From Mangrovicoccus sp. HB161399 (lineage in GTDB: Bacteria; Pseudomonadota; Alphaproteobacteria; Rhodobacterales; Rhodobacteraceae), in NCBI RefSeq assembly GCF_013184745.1, contig NZ_JAATVU010000066.1:1-32758 (forward strand): DNA of 32,758 nt, read 5' to 3'. Position numbers and translations under genes: made by a program. Shown piece by piece: positions 504-8,334 of the stretch (its first letter is position 1; every line of letters starts with the position of its first letter). The notes under the pieces were generated by a model that ran no database searches, was not told where the DNA came from, and was given only the letters and a program-made list of their open reading frames with translations.

Positions 504-1622
504 TTGTCGGACAAGATGAACCGCAGGAAATTCCTGCGTGCCACTGCGCTTGCCGGTGGCGCAGGCACGCTCGCCGCACCGGCCGTGCTGGCCCAGGCCC
601 CGATCGTGATGAAGATGCAGACCTCGTGGTCCGCCTCGAACATCTGGCAGGAATTCGCCCAGGACTATGCCGACCGCGTGGAGGCCATGTCGGGCGGCCG
701 GATCAAGATCGACCTCCTGCCCGCGGGCGCGGTGGTCGCAGCCTTCCAGGTGCTCGACGCCGTCAATGACGGGCTTCTCGACGCGGCGCATTCAGTGCCG
801 GTCTACTGGTACGGCAAGAACAAGGCCGCCTCGCTCTTCGGCACCGGCCCGGTCTTCGGCGGCTCGGCCACGACGATGCTCAGCTGGTTCTACGAGGGCG
901 GCGGCAAGGAATTCTACGACGAGCTGACCCAGGACATCATGGGGCTCGATGTCGACGGCTATCTCGGCTTCCCGATGTTCGCCCAGCCCTTCGGCTGGTT
1001 CAAGCAGGAGGTCAACACGGCCGCCGACCTGCAGGGCTTCAAGTACCGCACCGTCGGGCTTGCCGCCGACCTGATGCAGGAAATGGGCATGTCGGTGGCG
1101 CAGCTGCCCGGCGGCGAGATCGTCCCGGCGATGGAGCGCGGCGTGATCGACGCCTTCGAGTTCAACAACCCGAGCTCGGACAAGGATTTCGGCGCCCAGG
1201 ACGTGGCCAAGAACTACTACCTGTCCTCCTACCACCAGGCCTCCGAGAGCTTCGAGTTCCTGTTCTCCAAGATATTCATGGAGGATCTGGACGACGACCT
1301 GCGCGCGATCGTCAGATACGCGGTCGAATCCGCCTCCACGGCGAACACCGCCAAGGCGATGCGCCGCTACTCGGCCGACCTGCAATGGCTGCAAAACGAG
1401 GCCGGCGTCACCGTCCACCGGACCTCGAAGGAGATCCTCGACGCGCAGCTCGCCGCCTGGGACAAGCTCATCCCTCAGCTGGAGGAGGATCCCTTCATGA
1501 AGAAGGTCCTCGACAGCCAGCGCGCCTGGGTCGAGCAGGTCGCCTATTACGAGCTGATGAACGCGCCCGACTACGCGCTGGCCTTCGAGCATTACTTCCC
1601 GGGCAAGCTGAAGCTCGGCTGA
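504..1622 (+). CDS. dctP: TRAP transporter periplasmic substrate-binding protein (DctP/TakP class)
   Basis: This 372-aa extracytoplasmic solute receptor captures a small organic acid and hands it to the DctQM permease. The N-terminus has a twin-arginine signal (RRKFLR, residues 7-12), a hydrophobic stretch and an AQA-type cleavage site near residue 31, so export is probably by Tat. The mature protein fits the mannitol/chloroaromatic receptor class related to TakP. It has a TRAP-type core, GWFKQEVNTAADLQGFKYR around residues 165-185, whose final Arg corresponds to the conserved carboxylate-binding arginine of the family. The start is TTG at 504, 5 nt after AGGGAGG. The alternative ATG at 516 is too far from that site and would shorten the region before the RR motif. 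A monocarboxylate or keto acid is the likeliest substrate, but this is inferred from the class. Confidence 0.93.
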   Translation: MSDKMNRRKFLRATALAGGAGTLAAPAVLAQAPIVMKMQTSWSASNIWQEFAQDYADRVEAMSGGRIKIDLLPAGAVVAAFQVLDAVNDGLLDAAHSVPVYWYGKNKAASLFGTGPVFGGSATTMLSWFYEGGGKEFYDELTQDIMGLDVDGYLGFPMFAQPFGWFKQEVNTAADLQGFKYRTVGLAADLMQEMGMSVAQLPGGEIVPAMERGVIDAFEFNNPSSDKDFGAQDVAKNYYLSSYHQASESFEFLFSKIFMEDLDDDLRAIVRYAVESASTANTAKAMRRYSADLQWLQNEAGVTVHRTSKEILDAQLAAWDKLIPQLEEDPFMKKVLDSQRAWVEQVAYYELMNAPDYALAFEHYFPGKLKLG

Positions 1623-1631
1623 GCCCTGGAC

Positions 1632-1663
1632 GGCGCCCTCCCCCGATGCTCCGGGAGGGCGCC
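1632..1663 (+). terminator. Perfect 11-bp hairpin between dctP and dctQ (attenuator or 3' stabiliser)
   Basis: GGCGCCCTCCC (1632-1642) and GGGAGGGCGCC (1653-1663) are perfect inverted repeats with a 10-nt loop, followed by ACTTTCTTT. It lies 10 nt after the dctP stop and 21 nt before the dctQ start. In binding-protein transport operons such hairpins usually let the receptor be made in excess of the permease, by partial termination or by protecting the upstream mRNA. The weak T-run suggests partial rather than full termination. Confidence 0.75.
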
Positions 1664-1684
1664 ACTTTCTTTGCGGGAAATCCC

Positions 1685-2269
1685 ATGATCGGCTACATCC
1701 GTTTCGCCGACGCGCTCTCTGCGTGGTTCGGCAAGGCCTTCGCCTGGCTCATCCTGATGATGGCGTTCGGCACCGGCTACGAGGTCTTCGTCCGCTACGT
1801 CCTGAACAGCCCCACCGCCTGGGCGCTGGACGTCTCCTTCATCATGTACGGCGCGCTCTTCATGATGGCAGGCGCCTACACGCTGTCGCGCGGCGGCCAT
1901 GTGCGGGGGGATTTCCTCTACCGCCTGTGGAGCCCGCGCTGGCAGGCCCGCATCGACCTCGTGCTCTATGTCGTCTTCTTCTTCCCCGGCGTCCTGGCGC
2001 TGATCTTCGCGGGCTGGAAATACGCCGCGCGCAGCTGGCAATACGCCGAGGTTTCGGTCAACTCGCCCGCGGGCGTGCCGATCTACCAGTTCAAGACCGT
2101 GATCGTCGTCGCCGGCGTGCTGCTGTTCATCCAGGGCATCGCCCAGGTCATGCGCTGCATCATCGCCATCCGCACCAATGAATGGCTGGCGGCCGACGAA
2201 GACGTGCAGGAAACCGAGGACATCCTCATGGCAAGGGCCGCAGAGGCCGAGAAGGACGCCCATCCATGA
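1685..2269 (+). CDS. dctQ: TRAP transporter small permease subunit (DctQ class)
   Basis: This 194-aa inner-membrane protein has about four transmembrane segments (roughly residues 15-35, 45-70, 90-110 and 130-155), as in DctQ subunits, followed by a charged cytoplasmic tail. It pairs with DctM to form the Na+-coupled permease. The start at ATG 1685 gives the usual length for the family. An in-frame ATG at 1646 sits inside the intercistronic hairpin and is unlikely. The stop codon overlaps the next gene's start (ATGA), indicating translational coupling. Confidence 0.92.
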   Translation: MIGYIRFADALSAWFGKAFAWLILMMAFGTGYEVFVRYVLNSPTAWALDVSFIMYGALFMMAGAYTLSRGGHVRGDFLYRLWSPRWQARIDLVLYVVFFFPGVLALIFAGWKYAARSWQYAEVSVNSPAGVPIYQFKTVIVVAGVLLFIQGIAQVMRCIIAIRTNEWLAADEDVQETEDILMARAAEAEKDAHP

Positions 2270-3684
2270 CCGATCCCATGGTCGCGCTCAGCATGCTGGG
2301 CCTTTTCATCCTGATGGTCTTCCTCGGATTCCCGATCGCCTTCACGCTGATGGCGATGGGGCTGGGCTTCGGCTATTACGCCTATTTCGACGAGCGCCGG
2401 ATGTGGCGCGAGCACTTCCGCCTGCCCGAGGACTCGTCCTGGTGGGACCAGGCCAGCACATGGGTCGACGGCTGGCTGAACAACCGCGTCTTCGACCTCT
2501 TCATCAACCAGAGCTTCACGGTGATGTCGAACGAGGTGCTGACCGCCGTGCCGCTGTTCCTGTTCATGGGCTACATCGTCGAGCGCGCCAACATCGTCGA
2601 CCGGCTGTTCTCCACGCTGAACATCGCCTCGAAGAACGTGCCCGGCTCGATGGGGGTCGCGGCGCTGATCACCTGCGCGCTCTTCGCCACCGCAACCGGC
2701 ATCGTCGGCGCCGTGGTGACGCTGATGGGGCTGCTCGCCCTGCCCGCCATGCTGAAGGCGCGCTACGACAACTCCTTCGCCGCGGGCATCATCTGCGCGG
2801 GCGGCACGCTGGGCATCCTGATCCCGCCTTCGATCATGCTGATCGTCTATGCGGCGGCTTCCAACGTCTCGATCGTCCGCCTCTATTCCGGCGCGCTGCT
2901 GCCGGGGCTGACGCTGGTCGGGCTCTACCTCGTCTACGTGATGGGCCGCGCGATGCTGCAGCCCTCGGTGGCGCCGCGGCCGAGCGCGGAGGACATTCCT
3001 GACGTGCCCCGGCTCGAGCTGCTGCGGATGGTCGCCACCAGCTTCCTTCCGCTGGCGGCACTGATCCTGGCGGTGCTGGGCTCGATCCTCTTCGGCCTGG
3101 CCACGCCCACCGAAGCGGCCTCGATCGGCGCGCTCGGCGGCATCCTGCTGGCCTTCCTCTACCGCTCGATGACCTGGGGGCGGCTGCGCGAGAGCGTCTA
3201 CCTGACCGCGCGGACCACCGCGATGGTCTGCTGGCTCTTCATCGGCAGCTACATCTTCTCCTCGGTGTTCAGCTATCTCGGCGGCGAGCAGGTGATCTCG
3301 GAATTCGTCAAGGGACTCGACATGTCCCCGGTGATGTTCCTGATCATGGCGCAGCTGATCATCTTCCTGCTGGGCTGGCCGCTGGAATGGTCGGAGATCA
3401 TCATCATCTTCGTGCCGATCTTCCTGCCGCTCCTGCCGCATTTCGGGATCGATCCACTGTTCTTCGGCGTCCTCGTCGCGCTGAACCTGCAGACTTCGTT
3501 CCTGACGCCGCCGATGGCGATGTCGGCCTACTACCTCAAGGGCATCGCGCCCCCCGAGGTGCGGCTGACGCAGATCTTCGCGGGCTGCATGCCCTTCCTG
3601 TTCTGCGTGATCCTCGCGATGGTGCTGATGTACCTGGCGCCGGGCATCGTCTTCTACCTGCCGGACATGATCTATGGCAGCTGA
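2266..3684 (+). CDS. dctM: TRAP transporter large permease subunit (DctM class)
   Basis: This 472-aa protein has about 12 to 13 hydrophobic segments. It carries conserved DctM stretches such as FLFMGYIVERA and GGTLGILIPPSIMLIVY, the latter being the conserved pore hairpin. It forms the substrate and Na+ translocation path together with DctQ. Loop residues about 40-75 are polar (many W, R and D), as in the mannitol/chloroaromatic (FcbT3-like) branch, which agrees with the receptor's class. The start overlaps the dctQ stop by 4 bp. An 8-bp GC hairpin follows at 3695-3716. Confidence 0.94.
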   Translation: MTDPMVALSMLGLFILMVFLGFPIAFTLMAMGLGFGYYAYFDERRMWREHFRLPEDSSWWDQASTWVDGWLNNRVFDLFINQSFTVMSNEVLTAVPLFLFMGYIVERANIVDRLFSTLNIASKNVPGSMGVAALITCALFATATGIVGAVVTLMGLLALPAMLKARYDNSFAAGIICAGGTLGILIPPSIMLIVYAAASNVSIVRLYSGALLPGLTLVGLYLVYVMGRAMLQPSVAPRPSAEDIPDVPRLELLRMVATSFLPLAALILAVLGSILFGLATPTEAASIGALGGILLAFLYRSMTWGRLRESVYLTARTTAMVCWLFIGSYIFSSVFSYLGGEQVISEFVKGLDMSPVMFLIMAQLIIFLLGWPLEWSEIIIIFVPIFLPLLPHFGIDPLFFGVLVALNLQTSFLTPPMAMSAYYLKGIAPPEVRLTQIFAGCMPFLFCVILAMVLMYLAPGIVFYLPDMIYGS

Positions 3685-3900: not shown

Positions 3901-4960
3901 GGGCATCCCCCCCGCCCGCTGCCGCGGGCGGCGACGGCCGCGCCATCAGCCGCGCGGCCTTCCGGTCCGGGTCCTCGCCGGACGGTTCCACCCCAGGCAC
4001 ATAGGCGACGACCCGCGACCGACCCCCGCGCTTGGCCGCGTAGAGCGCGGAATCGACATCGGCGAGCATCTGCGCGGGCTCCCAGCCGTTGAACTGGCCG
4101 GTGGAGCAGACGCCGATGCTGGCCGAGATCAGGCAGTGCCCATCGGGCACCGGAATCGGCGTTTCCAGCGCGGCGATCATTTCCACGGCGCGGCGGCGCA
4201 CCGCGTCCAGATCGGTCTCGTCCTTCAGGACGATCAGGAATTCGTCCCCGCCGGTGCGCACCAGCGTGTCGCCCTCCGACGTGCGGTCCAGCATCAGTCG
4301 CGCGACATGCTGCAGGACCACGTCGCCCGCGCCGTGCCCCATCGTGTCGTTGACCCGCTTGAAATAGTCGAGATCGATCCCGACCAGCGTGAAGGACACG
4401 CCCTGCCGGCGGTGGCGCGCCAGCACCAGGTCAAGCGCCCGGCGGTTCTTCAGCCCGGTCAGCGTGTCGGTATAGGCTTGTTCCTCGGCCGCGATCCGCG
4501 CCGCCTGCAGCCGCAGGTTCAGCTCGTAGGAGGCATCCATCGCCGCCGATTTCGCCTCCACCAGATAGAGCATGTCCATGGTGGGATCGGTGGTGGCGAA
4601 ATCGCTGGCATGCAGCGCGTAATGCCGGATCGCATCGAACACATATAAGCCGAAGGACAGGTTCAGGAGCAGCCCGCCATCCGCAGCGGCCGTCACCTCG
4701 CCGCGCAGCTGCGTCTGCGGGTCGTCGCGGAAGTAGAGCCGCAGCGGCGTCCCCGCCGCCAGGCGCAGCGCCTCCATCGACGCGACCTCGCGCGGGCGCT
4801 TGAAGCGGAACAGCTCGAACAGCCGCGCGCTGCGGAAATAGCCGTCGGGCCGGGTCTTGGCCAGGGTCGGGCCGACATGCACGATATTGCCCGCGGCATC
4901 CGCCTGCAGGTTCATCGGCATCAGCACATCCAGCGCGTGACAGTCCAGACGGATCTCCAT
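3878..4960 (-). CDS. HNOBA-domain diguanylate cyclase
   Basis: This 360-aa protein makes c-di-GMP from two GTP. Residues about 7-115 resemble the heme-NO-binding-associated (HNOBA) domain, with a LMPMNLQAD...IVHVGPTLAKTRPDG pattern and a following FxFKRP. A helical linker (about 130-162) leads to a complete GGDEF domain (about 163-320) with DTLTGLKNRRA, DLDYFKRVND and GGDEF at 237-241. The product-inhibition I-site, RxxD five residues before the motif, reads SEGD (228-231), so feedback inhibition is probably lost. The start at ATG 4960 is 8 nt after the stop of the H-NOX-like gene. The two form an operon, and their domains are normally found together in NO-signalling proteins. The C-terminal 40 residues are low-complexity. 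Confidence 0.88.
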   Translation of the reverse strand: MEIRLDCHALDVLMPMNLQADAAGNIVHVGPTLAKTRPDGYFRSARLFELFRFKRPREVASMEALRLAAGTPLRLYFRDDPQTQLRGEVTAAADGGLLLNLSFGLYVFDAIRHYALHASDFATTDPTMDMLYLVEAKSAAMDASYELNLRLQAARIAAEEQAYTDTLTGLKNRRALDLVLARHRRQGVSFTLVGIDLDYFKRVNDTMGHGAGDVVLQHVARLMLDRTSEGDTLVRTGGDEFLIVLKDETDLDAVRRRAVEMIAALETPIPVPDGHCLISASIGVCSTGQFNGWEPAQMLADVDSALYAAKRGGRSRVVAYVPGVEPSGEDPDRKAARLMARPSPPAAAGGGDALSARPLR

Positions 4961-4968
4961 CGCGCGCC

Positions 4969-5553
4969 CTAGCTTCCCGCGGCCAGCTCGAAGCTGCGCC
5001 CGGAGGCGAAGCCATTGTCGATCAGCCGGATGCAGACATGGGCGAGCCCGGCGCTCGGCGGCAGGCATTCCAGCAGCACCAGCGAGCCGTAATCGTCGGC
5101 CATGGTCCGCATCAGCCCGACCAGGACATGTTCGAAGCCCGGCAGGTGCCATTCGCAGTCCAGCCTGTAGGACGCCTCGTCGATCGGCAGAAGTTCCAGC
5201 CGCGGCAGGTCGAGCTGCGGCACCGCCAGCCGCGCGCGGTCGGGCATCTCGTCGAGCGAATGCAGGAAATCGACGAAGGTCGCGCCGCCGAAGCGCAGCA
5301 GCCGCCGCACGGGCTCCAGGTTGGGATGGGACACCAGGTAGGTCCCCAGATCCTCGAGGACGCAATCCGCGGACTTGCCGAGATAGGCGGCGGCAGCAGC
5401 CAGCACGTCGCCGGTCAGCGCGTCGTCGTAGAGCAGCATCGCCTCGAACCCGGCCGGATCGACATCGGCGGCCTGCGCCACCTCGGTCCAGGCCCCGGCA
5501 CCGTAGGTGTCGCGGAGGAAGCACTGCAGCGATTTGTTGATGAGCCCGTGCAC
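4969..5553 (-). CDS. H-NOX-fold (HNOB) sensor protein lacking the proximal heme histidine
   Basis: This 194-aa protein has normal H-NOX length and the family start MHGLIN (GTG codon). H-NOX proteins bind heme through a histidine in a MDEVH-like motif and hold the propionates with YxSxR. An ungapped alignment by eye to the Thermoanaerobacter H-NOX (FAGRRLVNFL...DEVH) places FGGATFVDFLHSLDEMP on it exactly. Pro104 then falls where the proximal His should be, and YxSxR reads Y129-R-L-D-C133. Only His98, six positions earlier, is nearby. The fold is probably kept but canonical heme ligation is not. It precedes the HNOBA-GGDEF gene by 8 nt, so it probably modulates that cyclase, either with no heme or with another ligand. 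Confidence 0.85.
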   Translation of the reverse strand: MHGLINKSLQCFLRDTYGAGAWTEVAQAADVDPAGFEAMLLYDDALTGDVLAAAAAYLGKSADCVLEDLGTYLVSHPNLEPVRRLLRFGGATFVDFLHSLDEMPDRARLAVPQLDLPRLELLPIDEASYRLDCEWHLPGFEHVLVGLMRTMADDYGSLVLLECLPPSAGLAHVCIRLIDNGFASGRSFELAAGS

Positions 5554-5713: not shown

Positions 5714-6427
5714 TCACGCGGCGTCGGTGCGGGCCTCTTCCGCCGCGTCGAGCCAGGCAGGCAAAGCCGAAATGTCCGGCAGCACCACGGAGGCCAGCGG
5801 CGCCAGCTGCTGTCGTGACGCCATTCCGGTCAGCACGCCCACGCGGTGGCAGCCCGCTGCCCGCGCCGCGATCAGGTCGTGCGGGGAATCGCCGACCATC
5901 ACCGTCTCGGACGGATCGGCGCCGGTCATTTCCATGAAGGCCTGCAGCTGCCCCGGTCCCGGCTTCTGGCCGAAACCGCAGTCGCTGCCGATGATGTGAT
6001 CGAAGCAATGCGCCACGCCTGAGGCGCGCAGATGCGCCATCGCCGGCGCGCGCGCATCGTTGGTGATCACGCCCAGGGCCAGCCCGCGCTCGCGCAGCCC
6101 GCCGAGCAGCGGCAAGAGCGGCGCGGCCTCATGCTGCGGCGCAGCTGCCGCCATCACGTTCATCCGCGATACCAGTCCGGCCGCGGATACGCCCGGCACA
6201 TACGGCAGAAGCTGCCGGACGATGTCGCCCGGCGTCCCGCCGATGAGAACGCTGTCTTCCTCGAAGCGCCGGTCCTGCAGATCGAAGCCCACCGATGCCG
6301 CCATCTGCGCAGCTTTGGCATGGTCGCCCGAACTCAGTTCCAGAAGAAAGGATGCGGCCCAGCCGCCCCAAGTTGCCCGAAAGTCAAACAGCGTCCCGTC
6401 CTTGTCGAAAAGGACTGTCTTGATCAT
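5714..6427 (-). CDS. HAD-superfamily phosphatase (phosphoglycolate phosphatase-like)
   Basis: This 237-aa hydrolase has all four HAD motifs. Motif I is FDKDGTLFDF (nucleophile Asp8, acid/base Asp10), motif II is the Thr in GVITND, motif III is the Lys in GFGQKPGP, and motif IV is VGDSPHDLIAA. Helical cap residues lie between motifs I and II, as in the Gph-type subclass. The likely role is dephosphorylation of a small phosphorylated metabolite such as 2-phosphoglycolate, but the substrate cannot be read from sequence. The start at ATG 6427 follows GGGAGGAG by 6 nt. An upstream in-frame start would place 14 residues before the usual N-terminus and is rejected. Confidence 0.85.
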   Translation of the reverse strand: MIKTVLFDKDGTLFDFRATWGGWAASFLLELSSGDHAKAAQMAASVGFDLQDRRFEEDSVLIGGTPGDIVRQLLPYVPGVSAAGLVSRMNVMAAAAPQHEAAPLLPLLGGLRERGLALGVITNDARAPAMAHLRASGVAHCFDHIIGSDCGFGQKPGPGQLQAFMEMTGADPSETVMVGDSPHDLIAARAAGCHRVGVLTGMASRQQLAPLASVVLPDISALPAWLDAAEEARTDAA

Positions 6428-6521
6428 TAGCGCTCCTCCCAGTGGCCGCACTATGCCACGGAACGCCACCGCCAGACAAGAAAGCCCTTATCCCTTCCGA
6501 AACCGCGGTTCGGCGGAAGGT

Positions 6522-6912: not shown

Positions 6913-8334
6913 ATGCCGGGCCAGATTCTTGTCATCGATCCCGTCGCGGCGAACCGAATCGTGCTGCGCAGCCGGGTGACGGTTTCGTGCCATTCCGTGG
7001 TGCAGGCCGGCAGTCCGGACGAGGCCTTCGACCGGGTCTCCGAAAACCGCCCCGACCTGATTCTGCTCGGACCCGGCCTGACCGGCCCGATGGCCTGCGA
7101 CATGGTCCGGCGCCTCGCCGGCTTCCCGGCCGGGCGCGGCGTGCCAGTGCTGATTCTCACCGGCTCCTTCGACCCCGAGGCGGTGCGCGCGGCGCTGCTG
7201 GCGGGGGCCGAGGACGCGCTCGACCCCGAAGCGCAGGGCGCTTTCCTGCTGGCCCGGATCCGCGCGCTCCTGCGCCAGCGCGGCGCGCTGGACGAGATCG
7301 CCGCGCGCAGCCTGACCGAGCAGCAGCTCGGCCTGTCGGAGGACGCGGCCGCCTTCGTCCAGCCCGCGCGGATCGCCCTGGTCACCCAGCGCCCGGTCAA
7401 GGGCCGGGCCTGGCAGGCGGCGCTGATGCCGCTGGTGCCGCACCGGCTGTCCTGGCTCGACCCGCAGGCGGCCCTTTCGCTCTCGCCCGAGGACGGCCAT
7501 CCGGATCTCTACATCGTGGAGGACAATCCCGACCAGCCCGACGACAGCCTGCGCTTCCTCGCGGAACTGCGCAGCCGCCAGTCCAGCCGCACCGCCGCCG
7601 CCATCCTTGTCAGCGATCCGCGCGCGCGGCGCCAGGAACGGCCGGCGGACCGCCTGGCGATGGCGCTGGACATCGGCGCGAACGATGTCATGCGCCACGG
7701 CTTCATTCCCGAAGAACTGGTGCTGCGCAGCGCGCTGCACCTGGCGCGCAAGCGCGACGGCGACCGGCTGCGCAACCGGGTGGAGGACGGGCTGCGCGAG
7801 GCACTGCGCGATCCGCTGACCGGGCTCTACAACCGCCGCTATGCCATGCCCCATATCGACCGCATCGCCGAGCGGGCGGTGCAGAGCGGACGCGGCTTCG
7901 CGCTGATGATGGTCGATCTCGACCGCTTCAAGTCGGTCAACGACACCCATGGCCACGCGGCGGGCGACCGGGTGCTGGTGGAGACCGCGGCGCGGCTTTC
8001 GGACAACATCCGCAAGCAGGACCTGCTGGCGCGGATCGGCGGCGAGGAATTCCTGATCGCCATGCCGGACACTGATCTCGACCGGGTGCGCATGGCCGCG
8101 GCGCGGCTGCGCCGGGTGATCGCCGACCGGCCCATGTCCGCGGGCCAGTTGCTCCTGCCGGTCACCGCCAGCATCGGCATCGCCATGGCCGACATCGCCG
8201 CCTTCCGCGAGGCGGCCGCGGCCGGACAGTCCGGCACTGCGGTGCAGGCCCTGCTGGAACGCGCCGACAAGGCGCTCTACAGCGCCAAGGCCCAAGGGCG
8301 GAACACCGTTAATTTCGGCCTTTCCGCCGCCTGA
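6913..8334 (+). CDS. pleD: PleD-like response regulator diguanylate cyclase with a degenerate receiver
   Basis: This 473-aa protein has the PleD order REC1 (about 3-120), REC2 (about 151-280) and GGDEF (about 295-470). The cyclase is complete: DPLTGLYNRRYA, DLDRFKSVNDTHGH, GGEEF (376-380), and an intact inhibitory site RKQD (367-370). The first receiver is not. Gly53 occupies the position of the phosphorylated Asp53 of Caulobacter PleD, the acidic pair DD is reduced to Asp9-Pro10, and the conserved Lys near 105 is missing. REC2 also lacks a clear acceptor, as is normal for PleD. It should therefore not be switched on by DivJ/PleC-type phosphotransfer. The start ATG 6913 gives the canonical N-terminus. 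Confidence 0.9.
   Translation: MPGQILVIDPVAANRIVLRSRVTVSCHSVVQAGSPDEAFDRVSENRPDLILLGPGLTGPMACDMVRRLAGFPAGRGVPVLILTGSFDPEAVRAALLAGAEDALDPEAQGAFLLARIRALLRQRGALDEIAARSLTEQQLGLSEDAAAFVQPARIALVTQRPVKGRAWQAALMPLVPHRLSWLDPQAALSLSPEDGHPDLYIVEDNPDQPDDSLRFLAELRSRQSSRTAAAILVSDPRARRQERPADRLAMALDIGANDVMRHGFIPEELVLRSALHLARKRDGDRLRNRVEDGLREALRDPLTGLYNRRYAMPHIDRIAERAVQSGRGFALMMVDLDRFKSVNDTHGHAAGDRVLVETAARLSDNIRKQDLLARIGGEEFLIAMPDTDLDRVRMAAARLRRVIADRPMSAGQLLLPVTASIGIAMADIAAFREAAAAGQSGTAVQALLERADKALYSAKAQGRNTVNFGLSAA

Follow-up and report, generated by a model that had tools for sequence, protein, structure and literature searches.

What does the fold of a nitric oxide (NO) sensor do in a bacterium once the residue that holds its heme is gone? 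This question is raised by a two-gene locus of Mangrovicoccus sp. HB161399, a member of the Rhodobacteraceae, in a stretch of 32,758 nucleotides (contig NZ_JAATVU010000066.1, positions 1 to 32,758 of the forward strand, assembly GCF_013184745.1), called here the window. At 4969-5553, on the minus strand, a gene encodes an H-NOX-family protein without the proximal heme histidine, followed directly by the gene for a putative diguanylate cyclase, the type of enzyme that makes cyclic di-GMP (c-di-GMP). Such a pair, an H-NOX fold without heme histidine next to a c-di-GMP cyclase, had been proposed from the letters alone (the original prediction), and it is borne out by sequence comparison, a fold model and a family-wide survey.

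The reading frame is full length, as had been claimed (194 aa from a GTG start), and the Pfam family HNOB (PF07700) covers residues 2-157 at 4e-22, with 79.3 bits for a cut-off of 25.5; NCBIfam has no family for the protein. Its phmmer matches in the PDB are the H-NOX Alr2278 of Nostoc (best 1.6e-14) and the beta chains of soluble guanylate cyclase (sGC). In DFLHSLDEMPDRARLAVPQL the alignment to Alr2278 is free of gaps and sets LDEMP against LDNLH, so that Pro104 stands at the place of the proximal His, where the original prediction had put it. The heme-propionate motif YxSxR is lost, again as predicted, but the register proposed for it (Y129-C133) was four residues too early: YQSTR of Alr2278 aligns with CEWHL at 133-137. 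In this alignment neither hallmark of heme-sensing H-NOX proteins, proximal His or YxSxR, is present.

The predicted fold is nevertheless that of an H-NOX. An AlphaFold2 model built from 14 aligned sequences (predicted local distance difference test, pLDDT, 74.6; predicted template modelling score, pTM, 0.72) finds with Foldseek the Nostoc H-NOX 4iae as top match (E 4.4e-11, TMq 0.74), then other H-NOX and sGC structures. H-NOX proteins and sGC chain B make up 47 of the 49 PDB matches at E <= 0.001, the other two being sGC chain A and a designed protein. In sGC itself, the H-NOX domain of the alpha subunit is heme-free and serves a cyclase; it is eukaryotic, fused and paired with a heme-bearing beta subunit.

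Proline at position 104 is neither a sequencing error nor a local oddity, since most relatives share it. The source genome (7.18 Mb) has a single HNOB gene. The three other genomes of the genus carry one as well (two of them are identified through identical named loci as Mangrovicoccus ximenensis and Poseidonocella sp. HB161398), and Pro104 is found in all four, which disposes of a sequence error masking a His kept in close homologs. In the Rhodobacteraceae, sampled mostly at one genome per genus, HNOB is matched in 221 of 295 genomes, of which 218 are represented in the survey; fragments in three genomes (G064, G223 and G039) and second matches in five others (G137, G158, G102, G005 and G248) were left out. 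Removal of five identical loci and of locus L226 gave 245 non-redundant H-NOX proteins. A FastTree phylogeny places 216 of them in one clade with the source protein and 29 outside it (branch support 0.84, length 1.18). Residue 104 is Pro in 152 clade members and His in 18, the others having Gln (10), Arg (9), Ser (8), Asn (6), Ala (4), Gly (3), Glu (2), Thr (2), Lys (1) or Asp (1). His is lacking in 198 of 216, whereas outside the clade it is present in 28 of 29, the last having Gln. When ten loci found only by a scan of close relatives are set apart, 149 Pro and 17 His remain among 206. YxSxR occurs in none of the 215 clade members that cover the site, His-bearing ones included, versus 27 of 29 outside. 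Near-invariant columns common to His-bearing and His-lacking members are G70, R84, R87, F96, R106, P117, G146 and Y155; column 104 is ordinary, with entropy rank 88 of 158.

As judged from profile searches, the variant clade looks restricted to the Rhodobacteraceae. Order-wide, 237 of 292 genomes match the variant profile, some through canonical H-NOX proteins. Class-wide, 6 of 289 genomes match: four belong to the same family (the source included, and one of the four canonical), and two lie elsewhere (L265 and L266), with His and YxSxR kept, and hence are canonical. Taken at face value, one locus speaks against this restriction, a Pro104 variant with its cyclase, 63% identical, from a metagenome-assembled genome titled Hyphomicrobiales (L037); gene transfer or a misnamed bin may account for it. 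Fourteen genomes, paired by hand, hold both a variant and a canonical H-NOX, the variant having Pro in 13, Thr in one and His in none. The idea that His persists in genomes devoid of a second, canonical H-NOX was dropped, as 14 genomes are too few for a conclusion.

Loss of the axial His in this H-NOX group is already in print, so the source protein adds a member to a known group. According to the accessible text of Kumar and Spiro (2017, PMC5588039), the H-NOX of Paracoccus denitrificans, like that of Rhodobacter sphaeroides, is without it. The review of Lee-Lopez and Yukl (2022, PMC8738867), as far as its accessible text goes, delimits a ‘Group 5’ with His in fewer than 10% of members, mostly Pro and no conserved Cys, and poses, without answering it there, the question of how these proteins sense. 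Built from the P. denitrificans H-NOX, Group 5 as described there resembles the source clade in fold, His-to-Pro replacement, lack of conserved Cys and an adjoining GGDEF gene, with no difference in kind; the 18 His among 216 (8%) agree with ‘fewer than 10%’. The source H-NOX is very likely, by sequence, another Group 5 member. The ‘departure from known NO sensing’ announced by the original prediction is therefore real in kind but not new, replacement of the axial His, mostly by Pro, having been reported in 2017 and 2022.

The association with the cyclase is constant. Of the 216 clade loci, 214 have the cyclase gene immediately downstream and in the same orientation; in the other two (L054 and L247) the contig ends first. 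The 8 nt claimed to separate the two genes in the window are found between the H-NOX stop and the cyclase ATG. Natural fusions of the two proteins are absent among the 216 clade members. L095, flagged as an H-NOX/GGDEF fusion by a regular expression only, was rejected, its GGDEF string occurring by chance inside the H-NOX. Within a named subset of 38 genomes devoid of a variant H-NOX match (most further such genomes lie outside the subset), 36 also lack a match to the N-domain of the partner at E <= 1e-8. The exceptions are an N-domain fragment at a contig start (G031) and a cyclase without H-NOX (G327). In the latter genome (locus L272), the partner cyclase is kept as a 403-codon frame with GGDEF present, and no H-NOX-like frame occurs within the 3.4-kb locus.

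The active-site motif GGDEF is found in 213 of 214 partner cyclases; in the exception, L094, the frame runs off the contig end. RxxD is kept in 206 of the 213 GGDEF-bearing cyclases and absent in seven, including those of the source and its three genus mates, so that, on sequence, this genus may have lost product inhibition. As for the claim of a cyclase with an HNOBA partner domain, the GGDEF part stands, and the HNOBA label (PF07701) stays below the Pfam cut-off of 23.4 bits here: the full-length cyclase scores 17.3 bits and its first 150 residues 20.4. HNOBA matches at E <= 0.01 are nevertheless obtained for 12 of the 14 sequences in the N-domain alignment, among them the source cyclase, the best at 1.2e-7. 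A search of the whole genome for HNOBA gave no matches and is uninformative, the controls being empty likewise.

The variant H-NOX is under strong purifying selection, as its coding sequence indicates: pairwise comparison with the three genus mates gives ratios of non-synonymous to synonymous substitution (dN/dS) of 0.043, 0.050 and 0.067 (of 40 pairs listed in total, 23 are without estimate and the remaining 17 span 0.042 to 0.281). Decay into a gene without remaining function, which the loss of two heme features and the solitary cyclase of G327 might suggest, is hardly credible for a full-length protein with dN/dS of 0.04-0.07, an operon kept in 214 of 216 loci and near-invariant columns throughout its clade.

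The history of residue 104 is one of repeated change. FastTree trees built from the cyclase by itself, and from the two proteins minus column 104, require at least nine changes between His and not-His and 31-32 between Pro and not-Pro; these counts, from sequence trees, cannot tell loss of His from its regain. The codons for Ser, Ala and Thr at 104 are one step from Pro (with one exception) and those for Asn and Asp one step from His, as expected if changes arose from both Pro and His. The ancestry of the pair can be glimpsed in canonical systems. Ten genomes have a canonical H-NOX only, and in two of them (G296 and G007) an HNOBA-type domain lies directly beside it; in G296 this frame has 636 codons, with GGDEF present and an EAL string found by regular expression only. 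Both canonical H-NOX proteins of other families have a neighbouring frame similar to the source cyclase. Such frames beside canonical H-NOX genes are consistent with the variant pair having arisen from an ordinary heme-bearing one.

Could another residue have taken over from His104? The columns compared were those with His in over 15% of His-lacking members, and Met only where the source protein has Met. No His column is clearly gained in the 198 His-lacking members of the clade relative to the 18 His-bearing ones: His2 is found in 175/198 versus 14/18, His76 in 128/198 versus 11/18 and His98 in 114/198 versus 11/18. His98, put forward by the original prediction as a possible ligand, is no commoner in His-lacking than in His-bearing members, and nothing marks it as a substitute. 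Positions 8, 75 and 135 differ between the two sets with low p in a plain Fisher test; as candidates for co-change with the His they were abandoned, only two independent supported pairs being left on the tree.

Heme might be bound without the proximal His, by way of water or a different side chain or with no ligand from the protein, and NO might still be sensed. This is unlikely. It would accord with the NO pathway that the authors of PMC5588039, in its accessible text, propose to run through the His-less P. denitrificans H-NOX, and with the H-NOX of Dinoroseobacter shibae, which a review table lists as a heme NO sensor though it is without the Tyr and Ser of YxSxR. Against it stand the missing gain of any His column, the equal frequency of His98 in both sets and the presence of 11 different residues at 104 in His-lacking members, which shows that nothing is kept there as a ligand. 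The distribution of NnrS, a mark of NO handling, points the same way: it is not tied to the His, occurring in 9 of 17 genomes with the His and in 31 of 60 without it (the 60 picked by hand from the survey, source genome included), and a link between His104 and NO handling was given up on this frequency. In the source genome, NnrS has no match. Two genes of that genome (G000:C1:9134-9712 and G000:C35:113542-114132) encode FIST domains, the domain of NosP, another NO sensor, and are possible NosP-like NO sensors.

A redox switch built on cysteine or zinc, like that of the heme-free H-NOX of Vibrio cholerae, has in its favour the five Cys of the source protein (C11, C64, C133, C163 and C174) and the higher frequency of Cys133 in His-lacking members (115/198 versus 5/18). 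Cys133 is the only Cys column above 30%, yet it is absent from 83 His-lacking members and reaches 120/216 overall, while C64, C163 and C174 each occur in at most 6/198 (C163 in 6, C174 in 3). No widely conserved set of columns corresponds to a zinc site of three Cys plus His/Gln, and the accessible text of the 2022 review reports no conserved Cys in Group 5 (PMC8738867). The V. cholerae protein is comparable in that its heme-free form works in vitro; it differs in belonging, by the same text, to groups with an absolutely conserved proximal His, and its Cys/Zn site is not conserved in the source clade. A switch of this kind is thus very improbable. That the variant may be heme-free or alternatively liganded, as the original prediction had it, can fairly be inferred.

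Characterised relatives suggest how such a protein could act. In D. shibae, the NO-bound H-NOX inhibits the adjacent cyclase Dgc1 (accessible parts of PMC8846402 and PMC7232146), and the H-NOX figures as a heme NO sensor in a review table (PMC8846402, likewise in part). D. shibae is represented in the survey (G038, with a plasmid sequence identical to NC_009955.1 over 5001/5001 bases; H-NOX L123). Its H-NOX/Dgc1 pair falls in the same clade and has the same gene order as the source pair, at 48% identity over aligned columns; unlike the source H-NOX, L123 has retained His104 (LDDLHDR) and, of YxSxR, the Arg (CIWHR). This characterised NO sensor is without the Tyr and Ser of a motif that PMC12329717, in its accessible text, calls ‘absolutely conserved’. 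In P. denitrificans, the hnoX mutant forms less biofilm and a mutant lacking both cyclases more, and the authors suggest in the available passages that H-NOX inhibits DgcA in answer to NO (PMC5588039). The biofilm defect of the hnox mutant is confirmed in the accessible part of a 2025 metabolome paper (PMC12582929), from the text of which the words ‘proximal’ and ‘His residue’ are absent. Canonical H-NOX proteins can also have GGDEF-type partners, as do Legionella Hnox1 and the Shewanella woodyi H-NOX (PMC8846402, in part) and those of G296 and of the alphaproteobacteria G629 and G684. In the last three, the H-NOX adjoins a cyclase related to that of the source, but His and YxSxR are kept.

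The current view is that rupture of the Fe-His bond is how NO activates H-NOX (PMC12329717, accessible text). The resting state, in which the His is bound, should therefore be closed to an H-NOX that has no such His, and the protein may be held in the inhibiting one; together with the P. denitrificans genetics, a locked state of this kind suggests that the cyclase has an inhibitory subunit which is heme-free or holds heme loosely. Starting from what is observed, namely an H-NOX fold with neither the proximal His nor YxSxR, a constant operon, purifying selection and an intact cyclase motif, we favour, tentatively and at a little below an even chance, the reading that an H-NOX subunit free of His-ligated heme inhibits the downstream cyclase, the two genes forming a c-di-GMP control module of the Rhodobacteraceae. 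The H-NOX protein would dock on the HNOBA-like domain of the cyclase and, by analogy with relatives, lower its activity. Lacking the proximal His, it could not hold heme in the usual way and would be heme-free or carry a heme without protein ligand, permanently in the ‘bond broken’, inhibiting conformation. The effect would then depend on how much H-NOX is present, on binding and release or on a different ligand, rather than on NO acting through His-ligated heme.

Several points weigh against this proposal. The AlphaFold2 model is weakest at residues 87-89, 107-112 and 182-194, the first two being near residue 104 in sequence; with stretches on both sides of that residue among its least certain, it does not allow the state of the pocket to be read. 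Many columns are equally conserved with or without the His, which is readable as a pocket that still holds something. Finally, the authors of PMC5588039, in its accessible text, treat the His-less P. denitrificans H-NOX as responsive to NO.

A pocket that still holds something leads to another explanation, in which a small molecule other than a gas, or a tetrapyrrole other than His-ligated heme, gates the cyclase. The kept fold under strong purifying selection, the near-invariant columns common to members with and without His and the failure to find a substitute His or Cys column all argue for it. So does the top fold match 4iae, a Nostoc H-NOX with the drug BAY 60-2770, which presumably sits in the place of the heme and would show that the fold can bind a non-heme molecule. 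Since no such ligand is known, no neighbouring enzyme hints at one and model confidence is low near residue 104, the explanation is, on balance, rather improbable. It can be extended to a re-purposed sensor, the heme pocket having been handed to a different ligand, the Rhodobacteraceae controlling c-di-GMP by a non-heme, non-gas version of the NO-sensor fold and the His-to-Pro switch having been made (or reversed) several times; this extension is doubtful.

Compared with these alternatives, the proposal of an inhibitory subunit free of His-ligated heme remains the one we prefer. Across this large bacterial family the module is very common, and 198/216 clade members, roughly nine in ten, are without the heme-holding residue. 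As the Pfam family is named ‘Haem-NO-binding’, an NO-sensing role taken from annotation is unsafe here. His-bearing relatives still exist, among them L038 and L039 (60 and 59% identical to the source H-NOX), providing natural pairs for the comparison of His-heme and His-less forms of one module, and such pairs make the sensing question posed in the accessible text of the 2022 review (PMC8738867) directly testable.

Features of the H-NOX/cyclase pair in the window
Feature	Position	Strand	Basis
H-NOX-fold (HNOB) protein, 194 aa, GTG start, without proximal heme His	4969..5553	minus	Open reading frame and translation, Pfam, Foldseek of model
Pro104 codon CCC, aligned with the proximal heme His in Nostoc Alr2278	5242..5244	minus	phmmer and family alignments
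C133-E-W-H-L137, stretch aligned with YxSxR (heme-propionate motif), Y, S and R all lost	5143..5157	minus	Alignment to Alr2278
His98 codon, candidate alternative ligand of the original prediction	5260..5262	minus	
Partner diguanylate cyclase, 360 aa	3878..4960	minus	ATG at 4960, 8 nt after H-NOX stop
N-terminal domain of partner cyclase, HNOBA-like, sub-threshold	4511..4960	minus	Pfam HNOBA (PF07701)
GGDEF domain of partner cyclase, residues 162-316	4013..4477	minus	Pfam GGDEF 1.7e-36
GGDEF active-site motif of partner cyclase, intact	4238..4252	minus	
RxxD inhibitory-site position of partner cyclase, reads SEGD (Arg absent)	4268..4279	minus	

Around the pair, a gene for a HAD-type hydrolase (5714-6469, minus strand) lies directly upstream of the H-NOX gene on the same strand. 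On the plus strand, 504-3684 encodes a DctP-type solute-binding protein and then open reading frames that resemble, by eye, the membrane components of TRAP transporters. Another diguanylate cyclase, with receiver (Response_reg) and GGDEF domains, is encoded at 6913-8334 on the plus strand, opposite to that of the H-NOX gene and about 1.4 kb from its start.
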